Shown in pieces: positions 6,581-19,782 of a stretch of 36,765 nt of DNA. The DNA is from Acidobacteriota bacterium. Its GTDB lineage: Bacteria > Acidobacteriota > Terriglobia > Acidiferrales > UBA7541. Every line of letters begins with the position of its first letter. Positions within the stretch are counted from its first letter, which is position 1. The translations under genes were made by a program, and so were the position numbers. Location of the stretch: NCBI GenBank assembly GCA_016201215.1, contig JACQDH010000009.1, forward strand, positions 1 through 36,765, in the 5' to 3' direction. The notes beneath the pieces are model-generated. The model was not told where the DNA came from. It worked only from the letters and a program-made list of their open reading frames with translations, and did not search any database.

Positions 6581-7855
6581 CTACGGCATGGGACGCAGGG
6601 TCGTGTTGACCAAGAACGGGTCGTCGAATGCGCTGCGCTCGCCCGCTTTCTTGCCCGCGACCGGCTGCAGGCGAGCGGAAAGAGGTTTGCGCAGCTTGAA
6701 GGCCAAGCTCGCGACATCGCCGATGATTCGGGCGAGCTGCTCCTCGGTGACATCGCCCGGCAGAGGGATGGTATCGAGACCCGTGCCGCAGACCGCTGAA
6801 TAGGCGAGCAGCGAGTCGAGCGTGAGCGTGCCCTCGCCCCAGCGCTGTGCCAGCACGCTGTCCTCAAGCACCGGCAGCATCAGTCCCGAATAGCCGGCGC
6901 GCTTCACCGGGATCGCGCGCAGCGCAGCAGTGATGACGGCGGCAGCGGTCATGGTTCCGCTCGAGCCGACCTTTGCGCCGGTCAGGTTTTCGATGGCGGC
7001 ACCGATGGAAACGTCTTTGAGCGGAGCGGGAGAGAGGTCAATGCCCACGTAGCTCCATGCGGTCTCCTTCTCGAGCCGCAAGGCGACGGCCTCGATGACC
7101 CGCGCGTGCTGCCCCAAAGCCGACTCCAGCGCTTTGCCGGCCGTGCCCGGCTGCCGGCTGGAGGCAAACGCCTCCGCAACCACATTGGCCGATTGCAGCG
7201 CAATTCCAAATTGCCGTCCCGCGCCGGTGTGGTAGGAGCCCGGATAGAAGGGTGTGTTCACGGGAACCATGGCCGTGGCGGAAAAACTGAAATTGCCCTG
7301 GCTGTGCCGTGTTTTTTTCGAAAGGAACTTCATTAGCTTCGCCGCGGCGAGCACGGCGTTCCAGTGCACACCGTCTTCTCCGGCGACGACCACACTCGCA
7401 TTGAGCGTTGTCGTGTGGCGCAGGATCTCGCCGAGCAACTCGACCTGACGTGGATCGTCGGTATCGCGCAGCATGGCCGGGCCGATGGCGGTGTCGAAGC
7501 CTTCTTTCTTAGCCAGGGCTTCGTACTCGCGGAAGAAGGCCACCACGGCATCGCCCCCAAGGCCGCGCGTGTACTCCGGAAAAGGCTGCGTGCTGATACG
7601 GATGGACTGAACCTCGTAGCCGGCCTGCTCGTAGGCCTCCTTGGCCTTGCGGAGCATGGCCAGCGCCTCTGCGATCTGCTCCTTGTACGGCGCGCGCTCC
7701 AGGCGCACGAAGGCAGTGAGGGCGCGTACCTTGGGCTTTTCCGCAGCACGAGCAGAGGCAGCACAAGAAAGCGCCAAGACAAAAAGCAGGATATGGGCCA
7801 GCCCGCGGAGCACCGCGCGCGAATGCAGCTCGGAGGCTCCATGTCCTCGGGTCAT
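6581..7855 (-). CDS. Exported DUF711 (UPF0210-like) family protein
   Basis: A 424-residue protein. Residues 1-37 form a signal peptide (hydrophobic LAHILLFVLALSCAASA, then ARA-AEK). The rest matches the DUF711 family, with NTPFYPGSYHTG, GSSGTMTAAAVITAALRAIP, SGLMLPVLEDSVLAQR and CGTGLDTIPLPGD as the most telling stretches. DUF711 proteins resemble the pyruvate-formate-lyase-like fold, but their function is not established. Most members I know are cytoplasmic, so a clear export signal is unusual. The start at 7855 has GAGGAGGGT just upstream. The gene follows the acyl-CoA dehydrogenase gene by 54 bp and is probably co-transcribed with it. Confidence 0.85.
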   Translation of the reverse strand: MTRGHGASELHSRAVLRGLAHILLFVLALSCAASARAAEKPKVRALTAFVRLERAPYKEQIAEALAMLRKAKEAYEQAGYEVQSIRISTQPFPEYTRGLGGDAVVAFFREYEALAKKEGFDTAIGPAMLRDTDDPRQVELLGEILRHTTTLNASVVVAGEDGVHWNAVLAAAKLMKFLSKKTRHSQGNFSFSATAMVPVNTPFYPGSYHTGAGRQFGIALQSANVVAEAFASSRQPGTAGKALESALGQHARVIEAVALRLEKETAWSYVGIDLSPAPLKDVSIGAAIENLTGAKVGSSGTMTAAAVITAALRAIPVKRAGYSGLMLPVLEDSVLAQRWGEGTLTLDSLLAYSAVCGTGLDTIPLPGDVTEEQLARIIGDVASLAFKLRKPLSARLQPVAGKKAGERSAFDDPFLVNTTLRPMP

Positions 7856-7909
7856 ACACCCTCCTCGTGTTTTGCGCAGCGGAACGAGTTCGCGCGCCGC
7901 ACTGCGGTC

Positions 7910-9082
7910 CTATTCGTAGGCAGGGATGCCGGTGACGCGCGCGCCGATCACCAGGCGATGGATATCGTGCGTACCCTCGTAGGTGTACACCGATTCGAGG
8001 TTGTTCATGTGCCGCATGATGCAGTAGTCGTCCACAATGCCGTTGGCGCCCAGGATATCCCGCGCCTTGCGCGCCGACTCCAGCGCCATCCAGACATTGT
8101 TCATCTTCAGCATGGAGACATGCGTGTGGTCGGCGCGGCCCTGGTCTTTCAGCCTGCCCACGTGCAGGGCGAGCAGTTGCCCCTTGCTGATCTCCGTGAT
8201 CATCCACACCAGCTTGTCCTGGACCAGTTGGTGCGAGGCGATGGGCCGGTTGGCGAATTGCTTGCGTGTCTTGGCGTATTGCAGCGCGGTGTCGTAGCAA
8301 GCCATGGCCGCGCCGATGGCGCCCCACCCGATGCCGTAGCGCGCCTGGGTGAGGCAGCTCAGCGGGCCCTTCAGGCCCTCCGCCTTGGGTAGCATGTTTT
8401 CCGCAGGGACCTCGCAATCGGTCATGGCCAGCCCGGAAGTCACCGAGGCGCGCAGCGACCATTTGCCGTGAATGTCCCAAGCCTTGAAGCCCTTCGTGCC
8501 CTTTTCGATCAGGAAGCCGCGAATCGTATCGTCTTCGGTCTTGGCCCAGACCACGGACACGTCGGCAATCGAGCCGTTTGTGATCCACATCTTTTCGCCG
8601 TTGAGCACGTAGCAATTCCCGCGGCGCACCGCGCGGGTCAGCATGCCGCCAGGATTGGAGCCGAACTGCGGCTCAGTGAGCCCGAAGCACCCGACGGCTT
8701 GGCCCGACTGGAGCAGCGGCAGCCACCTGTTCTTCTGGGCCTCGCTGCCGTAGCTGTAGATCGGATACATCACCAGGGCGCTCTGCACGGAGACAAAGCT
8801 GCGCAGGCCTGAATCGCCTCGCTCGAGCTCCTGCATCACCAGGCCGTAAGCCAAATTGGACATTTCCGCGCAGCCATATCCGGTGAGGTTGGCCCCGAAG
8901 AACCCCATCTCGGCCACCTGCGGCAACAGGTGCATGGGGAAGGTGGCCTCGCGGTTGTGCTTCTCAATGATGGGGATCACCTGCTCGTCCACGAACTGCC
9001 GGGCCGTGCGCCGCACGAGTTTCTCTTCGTCACTCAACAGGGAGTCGAAGTCGATGAAGTCCACTCCAGGAAAAGCAGGCAT
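7910..9082 (-). CDS. gcdH: Glutaryl-CoA dehydrogenase-type acyl-CoA dehydrogenase
   Basis: A 390-residue FAD flavoenzyme of the acyl-CoA dehydrogenase family. Glutaryl-CoA dehydrogenase oxidatively decarboxylates glutaryl-CoA to crotonyl-CoA in lysine, tryptophan and aromatic-compound degradation. The specificity motif ELERGDSGLRSFVSVQS places Glu and Arg at residues 87 and 94, matching the substrate-carboxylate residues described for the human enzyme. The catalytic base is E369 in YEGTHDIH. FGLTEPQFGSNPGGM and WITNGS mark the FAD/substrate region. The ATG at 9082 has AAAGGAGC upstream; the longer frame adds only low-complexity residues. No electron-transfer flavoprotein or crotonase gene is nearby, so the pathway context is missing and a related specificity cannot be excluded. 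Confidence 0.9.
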   Translation of the reverse strand: MPAFPGVDFIDFDSLLSDEEKLVRRTARQFVDEQVIPIIEKHNREATFPMHLLPQVAEMGFFGANLTGYGCAEMSNLAYGLVMQELERGDSGLRSFVSVQSALVMYPIYSYGSEAQKNRWLPLLQSGQAVGCFGLTEPQFGSNPGGMLTRAVRRGNCYVLNGEKMWITNGSIADVSVVWAKTEDDTIRGFLIEKGTKGFKAWDIHGKWSLRASVTSGLAMTDCEVPAENMLPKAEGLKGPLSCLTQARYGIGWGAIGAAMACYDTALQYAKTRKQFANRPIASHQLVQDKLVWMITEISKGQLLALHVGRLKDQGRADHTHVSMLKMNNVWMALESARKARDILGANGIVDDYCIMRHMNNLESVYTYEGTHDIHRLVIGARVTGIPAYE

Positions 9083-16768: not shown

Positions 16769-17590
16769 CTAGCTCCCGGAAGCCGGTGTGGCGGATTTAG
16801 GAACACTCAGGTAGCCGACCACGCGGTTCTTGCCGACCTGGTTGACCACCAGCTCCAGCGCCGCGCGGGTGCCGCGGGCGTAGAAGTAGATCGGCTCGTT
16901 AACCGACCGGTTCCTCTTCTCCAGCCGCATGTCGTCCACGTAGAGCGCCAGGGTGTACTGGTTCCTCTTGGCGTTGGTGCCGCGCAACTCGACCGTCAGG
17001 ATGCCCACCTTCTGGCGGCTGCCCTTGCGGTCCAGTGTGAACTCGTAATAGTCGCGTTGCCCCATGCGGCGGAGCTGCTCGATCTCCTCGTGGTTGCGGG
17101 CGATCAGCGTGCCCAGTTCGCCGCGGGCCATCTGAAGATTGCCCTTGGTGGCTTCGAGATCCGACTTCACGCCGCTCACGTCGCCACTCAGGTTCTTCAC
17201 GTCATCCGCGCTGGCCTTGGTCGCCAGGGAGCTTTCCACCGCAGCCAGGTGCTTGGCGTTCTCATCCTTAATCTGCTTGGCCTGGCGCCTGGCGCTCGAC
17301 AGTTCGCCCTGGGTCAGCTTCAACCGGTCGGTCACCACGTTGAGCTGGCCCTGCACTTGCGCGTTGGTCTCTTCGGCCCGCGCCAGGCGCTGGGCGAGCG
17401 CTTCCGCGTTGTGCTTCTGCGTCTGCGTCTCAGCAGCCAGGGCCTGTTCGGCACCCTTGGCGTGACTCGAGGCATTCCAGGCTATGCCCAGAGCCAGCAG
17501 CGATACGGCGGCCAGCACAACCACAGCGATTCCCATCCACCGCGGCGTGCCCTCGGCCACCGAAGAAATGTCTTCACGTTCCTCTATCAT
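16769..17590 (-). CDS. Single-pass membrane protein with long coiled coil
   Basis: A 273-residue protein. After a short acidic cytoplasmic N-terminus comes one membrane helix (about residues 19-38, MGIAVVVLAAVSLLALGIAW). Residues about 45-185 are a continuous heptad-like coiled coil rich in Ala, Gln, Glu and Lys. The C-terminal roughly 85 residues form a beta-rich domain (DYYEFTLDRKGSRQKVGILTVEL, then KRNQYTLALYVDDMRLEKR). No enzymatic motif is seen; a structural or envelope-tethering role is plausible. Start choice: the ATG at 17590 has AAAGGAG 7 nt upstream, better than the ATG 18 bp earlier. A strong terminator follows at 16674-16705. Confidence 0.78.
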   Translation of the reverse strand: MIEEREDISSVAEGTPRWMGIAVVVLAAVSLLALGIAWNASSHAKGAEQALAAETQTQKHNAEALAQRLARAEETNAQVQGQLNVVTDRLKLTQGELSSARRQAKQIKDENAKHLAAVESSLATKASADDVKNLSGDVSGVKSDLEATKGNLQMARGELGTLIARNHEEIEQLRRMGQRDYYEFTLDRKGSRQKVGILTVELRGTNAKRNQYTLALYVDDMRLEKRNRSVNEPIYFYARGTRAALELVVNQVGKNRVVGYLSVPKSATPASGS

Positions 17591-17898
17591 CAGAATTCTC
17601 CTTTTCATCTTGTTGCCCTTGCACCGAAGGTGAATGCACGCCCCGCACCAAAATGGACGGACTCTGCGTACCTGCATAACATGCGACAAGTAAATGACTT
17701 AAGGTTGGCTGGTCGCGCCAATGGCCGCTCGTGCGGGTCAACAGACCAGGCAATCTTTACGCGCCGCATCTCTTTTCTGGGTATTGACCAATAGGTTGAA
17801 AACAGCAGACGCAAGCCTCGGCCGAGGGAGGCTGAGTTGGGAGTCACAGAGGTGGCTTTGCGACAACCCGACGCGGACAGCCGCGGAGTGCAGAATGA
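17591..17898. other. Intergenic stretch without a recognised gene
   Basis: 308 bp between the minus-strand coiled-coil protein gene and the minus-strand zinc-finger gene. I see no convincing coding frame, terminator or tRNA. It should contain the promoter of the coiled-coil gene, but no hexamer pair stands out on the minus strand; a TTATGC-like -10 near 17680 is the best weak candidate. Confidence 0.4.
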
Positions 17899-18132: not shown

Positions 18133-18432
18133 GCTGAGAAGCCCTTGCTCTGCATTCGATGTTCCAGCTACCCTCCCGATATGCAATTATGCTAAGGTAT
18201 TGATACACAAGGGATTAGCAGGGTCTCTGACGCAGATGCGCCGCGGGCACCAAGTACTAGTCCGGGAACTCTTTACGTGGAGCAGTTCATTCTTGGCCTA
18301 CGCCGGTGCCCGTGGAACAGTTCCAGAGCCCGGCCCCCAAAGGCCATTCGGGCGCTCATGGACATCCCAGGGGTTGTGAGTAGAATACAGGCTGCTCAGG
18401 TCAGCCCACGCAGACCGTGGAGGTCTCCCACC
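18133..18432. other. Divergent intergenic region, promoters not resolved
   Basis: 300 bp between two divergent genes. An AT-rich patch at about 18178-18212 could hold the minus-strand promoter of the zinc-finger gene, and TAGAAT at 18381-18386 could be a plus-strand -10 for the M24 gene. Neither has a good -35 at the right distance. The plus-strand frame is open here, but I see no domain or ribosome-binding site that would extend the M24 protein upstream. Confidence 0.35.
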
Positions 18433-19782
18433 ATGTTCTCGCGCCGCCAGTTTGTGCAGTCGCTCGGAATCGCCGCAGGAGCCACTGGGTTGATCCCGGC
18501 GGCAAAGCTCCTCGCCGATATCCGGCCGGGCAAGTTGCCTGCGCTCAAACCTCCGTTCCGGCTGCCGGTGGAGTGGTACCGCGCCACGGTGAAGCGTTTC
18601 CAGGCGCGCCTCGCCCAGCAGAACCTCGCCGGGGCGATTGTGAGCGACACGTTGAACCGCAATTACCTGACCGGGAGTTTTCTTACCGAAACCGAGCGAC
18701 CCAACTATCTGTTCGTTCCCGCCCAGGGCGAGCCCTTTGCGTTTATCCCGGGCCTCGACCGCGACATGGCGGCCAGTTGGTGGGTGAAAGATTTTGAGTG
18801 GTACTTCGATTTTCCCCATGCGGGCGAGTACAACCAGGTCGTCTGGAAGGCCGGCCCCAAAGAGGACCTGTTCGTGTGGATGTTGAAAAGACTCGCCAAG
18901 CGCGGCTTCGGCAGCGCCAAGCTGGGGATGGATCGCGAGCTGGTGCCCTCGCTGGACAAGAAGTTCAAAGAGACCTTGCCCTCCGCCAGCCTCACCGACG
19001 TGTCTAAGGATCTCATGGGCATGCGGCAAATCAAGACACCGGAGGAACTGGAGCTGATCCAAAAGGCCATTGACCTGCACGACGCGATGCTCTCGTTTGC
19101 CCGGGAGTTCATTCTCACAAACGGCACGGCGGTGACGGACTTCGATGTGCGCCGGGCCACCGAGGAGTTTGGCACGCGCACGCTGATGGCGGCGATGGGC
19201 AGCGAAGTGGACGGCCGCGCGCACCATGCCGTGGGGATCAACCTCAGCTTTTCCTGCCGCTCTGGCGTGGCCACAGCCTATCCGCATCCCAATCAGTTTT
19301 TTTACACACGCATCGCCCGCGGCCAGGCAGTGCAAATCTCTTCGGTGATCCGCATCGGCGGCTACGGCGGCGAGGGCTACCGCGCGCTGCACATCGCCCC
19401 GATAGACGGCCGGCAACAAAAGATGTGGGATGTGCACACAGCGATGACGTTAAAACAGGCCGAGCTTTGCAAGACCGGAGCGCGCTGCCAGGATGTCGCC
19501 GAAGCCGTGCTGGCCATTGCGAAAAACTTCGACATGGAGAGATACGTCTATCACCGCCCGGCGCATGGCCAGGGCATGGAAGGCCACCAGTCGCCCTATC
19601 TCGCTCTGGGCGACGACACCGTGCTGGCCGAGAACATGACCTTCTCAAATGAACCAGGGCTTTACAACCTCGAAGGCGGCTATGGCTACAACCACTCGAA
19701 CTGCGTGCTGGTGGGCAAACAGCGCGGCACAATCATGAACAAAACGCCGCTCACCCGCGACTTCTGCTGGCTGAAAACTTAG
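18433..19782 (+). CDS. Tat-exported M24/creatinase-fold protein lacking most metal ligands
   Basis: A 449-residue protein. The start carries a twin-arginine signal (MFSRRQFVQSLGIAAGATG), so export in folded form is likely. Residues about 45-190 resemble the creatinase N-terminal domain, and about 200-440 the pita-bread M24 domain, with EELELIQKAIDLHDAML and the HGQGMEGHQ and SNEPGLY motifs. In M24 aminopeptidases the metal is held by two Asp, one His and two Glu. Here H378 and E407 remain. The expected Asp positions fall in QISSVIRIGGYGGEG (about 301-315) and the last Glu in GYNHSN (about 418-423), and none of these is conserved. It is therefore probably not a classical metallopeptidase and may be a creatinase-like hydrolase. 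The ATG is chosen for GGAGG upstream and the Tat signal. Confidence 0.85.
   Translation: MFSRRQFVQSLGIAAGATGLIPAAKLLADIRPGKLPALKPPFRLPVEWYRATVKRFQARLAQQNLAGAIVSDTLNRNYLTGSFLTETERPNYLFVPAQGEPFAFIPGLDRDMAASWWVKDFEWYFDFPHAGEYNQVVWKAGPKEDLFVWMLKRLAKRGFGSAKLGMDRELVPSLDKKFKETLPSASLTDVSKDLMGMRQIKTPEELELIQKAIDLHDAMLSFAREFILTNGTAVTDFDVRRATEEFGTRTLMAAMGSEVDGRAHHAVGINLSFSCRSGVATAYPHPNQFFYTRIARGQAVQISSVIRIGGYGGEGYRALHIAPIDGRQQKMWDVHTAMTLKQAELCKTGARCQDVAEAVLAIAKNFDMERYVYHRPAHGQGMEGHQSPYLALGDDTVLAENMTFSNEPGLYNLEGGYGYNHSNCVLVGKQRGTIMNKTPLTRDFCWLKT

Follow-up and report, generated by a model that had tools for sequence, protein, structure and literature searches.

What chemistry, if any, can be carried out by a protein that retains the M24 ("pita-bread") fold when several of the residues that hold the two metal ions of canonical members have been replaced? 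The question is raised by a predicted gene product, here termed P0001, encoded within a stretch of 36,765 nucleotides from an Acidobacteriota bacterium (the window). An initial annotation had described it as a Tat-exported protein of this fold that had lost most metal ligands, and had offered two explanations: an enzyme with a different, creatinase-like chemistry, or a binding protein.

The open reading frame (ORF) is upheld by its length of 449 residues, a good ribosome-binding site and the presence of both domains listed in the table, with matches to PF00557 and PF01321 that exceed the Pfam cut-offs; NCBIfam yielded sub-threshold matches only. A structure model built with 44 of the 65 family rows described below had a mean pLDDT of 90.3 and a pTM of 0.88, and was poor in the signal region only. 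Pfam, the model and fold comparison all identify a pita-bread fold preceded by the N-terminal domain of creatinases and prolidases. Decay into a pseudogene was considered and rejected on the basis of the open frame, a start and length that are also those of the relatives L001-L004, and the invariance of residues in the cavity.

Table. Features of the P0001 gene and protein, with positions in the window; fractions refer to the 65 aligned family rows.
Feature	Position	Strand	Basis or remark
Ribosome-binding site GGAGGT	18419..18424	+	Eight bases between GGAGGT and ATG
CDS, two-domain M24-fold protein P0001, 449 aa	18433..19782	+	ORF reading
Twin Arg R4-R5 of SRRQFV	18442..18447	+	Motif, sub-threshold in Tat models
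Creatinase_N domain, residues 53-200, with invariant R89 and D109	18589..19032	+	PF01321, E=2.2e-12
Pita-bread Peptidase_M24 domain, residues 207-428	19051..19716	+	PF00557, E=3.8e-25; fold comparison
H285, creatinase H232 column, His also in canonical rows; 65/65	19285..19287	+	Alignment
S303, first Asp-ligand column; Asn 33/65, Ser 17/65, Ala 15/65, Asp 0/65	19339..19341	+	Alignment
E314, second Asp-ligand column; Glu 65/65	19372..19374	+	Alignment
C352, creatinase C298 column; 65/65	19486..19488	+	Alignment
H378, His-ligand column; 65/65	19564..19566	+	Alignment
H385-Q386, canonical His-Glu at these columns; 65/65	19585..19590	+	Alignment
E407, first Glu-ligand column and creatinase E358 column; 65/65	19651..19653	+	Alignment
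S422, last Glu-ligand column and creatinase H376 column; Ser 65/65	19696..19698	+	Alignment

The columns corresponding to the five metal ligands were fixed by alignment of P0001 to solved prolidases and to L072, L073 and L074, canonical M24 proteins of its own genome. That genome contains seven M24 matches, from which L072-L074 were used as canonical rows and L075 and L076 were left out; another, L078, showed no match to the family profile. In place of the canonical D-D-H-E-E set, P0001 presents S303, E314, H378, E407 and S422; two of these columns show complete loss of the ligand, and a third the conservative exchange of Asp for Glu. Judged by these ligands, P0001 is not a canonical M24 metallopeptidase. 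The retention of H378 and E407 and the loss of the first Asp and the last Glu had been correctly recognized, while the second Asp column is occupied by Glu and the last Glu column by Ser; N420 aligns with a canonical Arg and N423 with the Asp that follows the last Glu, so the earlier assignment of Asn to the last ligand position is discarded. The statement that most ligands had been lost holds for the three of five columns that are non-canonical, and is overstated insofar as E314, H378 and E407 could still form one site.

A scan of genome contigs returned 71 loci, of which 64 were counted as relatives and, with P0001, provided 65 rows; this count excludes L064, a partial locus, and the distant loci L066-L071, whereas L058, which ends at a contig edge, and L060, which has an odd N-terminus, were retained unchanged. 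In addition to the columns so marked in the table, R89, D109, Y316, R317 and N420 are identical in 65/65 rows. The first Asp column varies freely among Asn, Ser and Ala while the rest of the site stays fixed, and the 65 rows contain no Asp at the two Asp columns and no Glu at the last ligand column; homologues restoring canonical ligands at the altered columns were thus not encountered among the 64 relatives. Record titles assign the relatives to approximately eight phyla (Acidobacteria, Aminicenantes, Gemmatimonadetes, Bacteroidetes, Pseudomonadota, Planctomycetota, Chloroflexi and KSB1), many of the records being metagenome bins. The distribution is patchy: within the phylum of P0001 a member occurs in 12 of 149 genomes (E-values of 1e-60 or better), and within its genus in one of two, namely its own. 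On sequence comparison, P0001 and its relatives are a well conserved new subfamily that lies close to the creatinase-like M24 branch and is absent from the titles and abstract openings of the literature matches listed.

Inspection of the N-termini indicates that P0001 is probably exported. The twin-arginine signal annotated initially gains its strength from the family: RRx[FL] is found in the 75 residues before R43, ahead of the domain, in 54/64 relatives versus 5/310 control windows drawn from mature parts, but P0001 alone does not reach the thresholds of the curated models (13.5 bits versus 22.7 for Pfam TAT_signal; 13.6 versus 16.7 for TIGR01409). The ten relatives that miss the motif comprise L009 and L060, which lack the anchor; L058, which is cut; L034, which has RRNI; L026, L059 and L061, with no such motif; and L041, L042 and L065 (Gemmatimonadales/Gemmatimonadetes), which carry the single-Arg form SRGDF where others have SRRDF. 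A lipobox-like motif occurs in L012 and L029. Twin-Arg N-termini are also seen in two M24 proteins with canonical ligands, L074 from the same genome and L098 from Granulicella, so that Tat export is not the odd feature of P0001 and the earlier suggestion that it is uncommon for this fold finds no support in these sequences. L074, encoded on contig C115, has the full D-D-H-E-E set and shares the sequence TFSNEPG with P0001.

Whether the subfamily is closer to creatinases or to prolidases depends on the comparison made. By sequence, prolidases lead: phmmer with P0001 alone gave 1.2e-15 for the best prolidase versus 1.3e-9 for the best creatinase, and a profile search of the PDB retrieved prolidases first (best 5.4e-32), followed by creatinase 1chm (5.6e-26). 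Alignment of a 44-row family alignment to 1chm by hhalign gave 99.9%, with 24% identity over 389 columns, a result obtained with no prolidase control. By fold, creatinases and prolidases are tied in VIA-align comparisons with the predicted model: creatinases gave Z-scores of 37.5-37.9 (rmsd 2.5-2.6, 376-377 residues) and the best prolidase 38.5 (rmsd 2.9, 364 aligned). Among the 50 Foldseek matches listed, prolidases stand at the top and the best creatinase at rank 14, while the highest query-normalised TM-scores are those of creatinases (0.71-0.74, versus up to 0.71 for others). A tree constructed without the six ligand columns joined creatinase, a sister group described below and the P0001 family in one unresolved fork (82/86, not starred). 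This tree included 16 of the 65 family rows and the first tree 28 of 65; L046b and L102 were present in the first only. Ectoine hydrolase changed position between the two trees, and no placement is claimed for it.

In creatinase, catalysis at the guanidino group is carried out by H232, E262 and E358 with no metal involved, and R64 holds the carboxylate. In a MAFFT alignment P0001 has the same residue at the creatinase R64, D83, H232, R263, C298, H324, H331 and E358 columns, and differs at A260 (E314), E262 (Y316) and H376 (S422); the equivalents of H232, H324, E358, C298 and R64 (H285, H378, E407, C352 and R89) are invariant in the family. Of these five equivalents, all except that of C298 are nonetheless common in canonical M24 rows, where H285, H378, H385, E407, R317 and, mostly, R89 are found as well, and the shared columns are thus a sign of a working site rather than of creatinase alone. 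At the E262 and H376 columns all 65 rows depart from creatinase, with Tyr at the first and Ser at the second, and by these two tests of sequence P0001 is not a creatinase. The creatinase pair N249-C250 reappears as N-C in the relative L041. In sum of likenesses, P0001 shares with creatinases (1chm, 1kp0, 7yto) a two-domain M24 fold without the canonical Asp/Asp/last-Glu set, and differs in having Glu where they have Ala at the second Asp column and in its Tat-type N-terminus; with prolidases and aminopeptidase P (M24B) it shares the fold, its best sequence matches, the His and first Glu ligands and the active-site His columns, but it lacks their two Asp and last Glu ligands. As a separate observation, 765 plasmid records matched creatinase, 415 of them at 60-80% identity; of the 765, Klebsiella supplied 266 and Acinetobacter 103, and the near-full-length rows listed for these two were 65-69% identical.

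The sister group (L099, L101 and L103-L110) consists of Deinococcus and haloarchaeal plasmid genes whose records name them "Xaa-Pro peptidase" or "aminopeptidase P" and give no further function. At the five ligand columns its rows show G/A/I, E, H, E and S, and all eleven distinct sister-type rows have Glu at columns 314 and 316 and Ser at column 422; in a SELERT-type motif, the two Glu fall on the former Asp column and on the creatinase E262 column. The group resembles the P0001 family in the change of the second Asp to Glu and of the last Glu to Ser, and differs in having kept the Glu after the second His as well as Glu at the E262 column, and in the absence, by eye, of a Tat-like signal from the printed N-termini. 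In the first tree two sister rows grouped with the P0001 family (96/82). For the tree without ligand columns, a topology uniting family and sister rows gave an AU p of 0.222 and is thus not rejected, while the sister-type row L105_2 was placed apart from its group. By their sequences, the sister genes have the look of a stage between metallopeptidase and creatinase. ABC transporter genes are present in all eight sister loci read, with names indicating peptides or oligopeptides in three (L104, L106 and L110), and other peptidase genes occur in three (L103, L108 and L109). Canonical and non-canonical M24 genes lie near each other, together with ABC transporter genes, in L104 (5986-8388), L105 (5986-10603, a stretch that also contains an amidohydrolase gene) and L107 (1799-8281), as if the paired products acted on one peptide-like nutrient.

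A fully conserved site without the usual two-metal ligands makes cleavage of a different bond the most likely explanation. We therefore favor, with a probability of about 0.5, the reading that P0001 is an exported, active, metal-independent hydrolase of C-N bonds, resembling creatinase. In such an enzyme, delivered to the periplasm via the Tat motif, H285 would act as general base or acid, E314 and E407 would bind or polarise a substrate group that contains nitrogen, and R89 would take the part of creatinase R64 in holding a carboxylate; the bond hydrolyzed, not a canonical Xaa-Pro bond, would lie in a small compound of amide, amidine or peptide-like nature. The initial suggestion of a creatinase-like chemistry is supported by the invariant altered site and by the tree lacking ligand columns, at branch values of only 82/86. 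Two observations lead us to prefer catalysis without metal: neither creatinase nor the sister rows possess the full ligand set, and the residue at the first Asp column is free to vary. Support for it is lowered by the presence of most shared columns in canonical proteins and by the precedence of prolidases in sequence searches.

The most durable competing explanation, which we regard as rather unlikely, is a hydrolase in which E314, H378 and E407 would hold one divalent ion, the second site having disappeared, and a metal-bound water would attack an amide or peptide bond. All three residues are invariant. However, the H324 and E358 columns are also retained in creatinase, which works without metal, and all 65 rows have Ser in place of the last Glu, the ligand that bridges the two ions. 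In Pyrococcus horikoshii prolidase, as outlined in a section of PMC2814137, the ligands of the His-side ion are the second Asp, the His and the two Glu residues, and those of the other ion both Asp and the last Glu; relative to that enzyme P0001 would lack two of three ligands of the second site and only the bridging Glu of the His-side site, three of whose four ligand columns therefore keep a possible ligand. The same paper records maximal stimulation of Escherichia coli methionine aminopeptidase by one equivalent of Co or Fe, and a single Zn has been proposed, in an excerpt of PMC10377022, for Caenorhabditis elegans PID-5, which has fewer candidate ligands. Against a reduced site stands the inactivity of E. 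coli aminopeptidase P after mutation of Asp260 and Asp271, mentioned in the same excerpt.

The other initial proposal, an exported non-catalytic binding protein built on the M24 fold in the manner of the pseudoenzyme EBP1, appears improbable. It would accommodate the non-canonical residues at both Asp columns and the last Glu column, and chains of Spt16, a protein not known to be active, are among the fold matches listed. The existence of EBP1 as an M24 pseudoenzyme is noted in a portion of PMC11266112. The invariance of H285, H385, C352, R89 and E407 in all 65 rows disfavors this proposal, and the H243 column, which is Ala in the probably inactive PID-5 (excerpt of PMC10377022), is His in P0001. 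That P0001 is an ordinary metal-dependent Xaa-Pro peptidase whose ligands were merely mis-aligned is very improbable: PF00557 and PF01321 do pass their cut-offs and prolidases are first by sequence and by Foldseek, but phmmer, hmmsearch and MAFFT aligned the ligand motifs alike, and Asp, Asp and Glu at the three columns, present in L072, L073 and L074, occur in 0/65 family rows.

Two further M24-fold systems were compared. Ectoine hydrolase (DoeA/EutD; 6twk), described in a passage of PMC5924519 as a hydrolase of a ring C-N bond and no peptidase, resembles P0001 in fold (VIA-align Z 35.4) and in missing the canonical ligand set; it differs at the first Asp, His and first Glu columns, which are occupied by Glu, Tyr and Met, respectively (L095, L096). 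Where the DoeA active site has E, P, Y, M and T, P0001 has S, E, H, E and S, and TIGR02993 scored 32.8 bits on P0001 against a cut-off of 613. The DMSP lyase DddP has an M24-related fold (4s01, Z 28.3) and is no peptidase; its binuclear metal site of six residues, invariant in DddP according to a passage of PMC4108388, is a ligand set that P0001 lacks.

If the preferred metal-independent hydrolase reading of P0001 is correct, an exported branch would be added to the metal-independent M24 enzymes, which to our knowledge are few. We would extend it, tentatively and with the odds leaning against us, to a widespread unnamed family of exported metal-free M24 hydrolases in which, together with the sister group, a peptidase site may have been converted stepwise to a creatinase-type site acting on an extracellular C-N substrate. 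The steps would be replacement of the second Asp by Glu, replacement of the last Glu by Ser, and gain or loss of the E262 equivalent. Such a series would capture the transition from metallopeptidase to creatinase chemistry at intermediate stages, and since the sister rows combine a Glu in the former Asp position with the creatinase-type Glu, the order of changes is testable by mutation. Like the sister genes, members of the P0001 family would probably be labelled Xaa-Pro peptidase or aminopeptidase P, an activity against which the active site argues.

Genes surrounding P0001 were called with a home-made codon-usage caller, and their coordinates are therefore approximate. The window neighbours look like housekeeping genes, a synteny that provides no functional hint. 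A divergent gene at 16769-17608 (-), encoding approximately 279 residues, has no Pfam match at 1e-4; this gene and an htpX-like gene recur with the family gene in L001-L004, accompanied by a clpB-like gene in L002 and L004 and an hsp20-like gene in L001, L002 and L004 (names assigned by eye). Pfam scans revealed no constant partner among 29 neighbours, and a role in defence was dismissed in that PADLOC gave no match. Amidohydrolases (PF01979/PF07969) were encoded by 11/126 adjacent genes versus 6/344 further genes (Fisher p 0.001), with queries picked after inspection and the 11 cases derived from about three lineages. An amidohydrolase as common operon partner was rejected on that narrow representation and on the weak matches in the genome of P0001 (best 9e-8, one query). 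In Sphingobium sp. SYK-6 (L034), the family gene is followed by a TonB receptor gene and then by an amidohydrolase gene. Directly downstream of the family member in L046 lies a second, very divergent M24-fold gene (7440-8768, +), encoding 442 residues with a match to PF00557 at E=1.1e-9.
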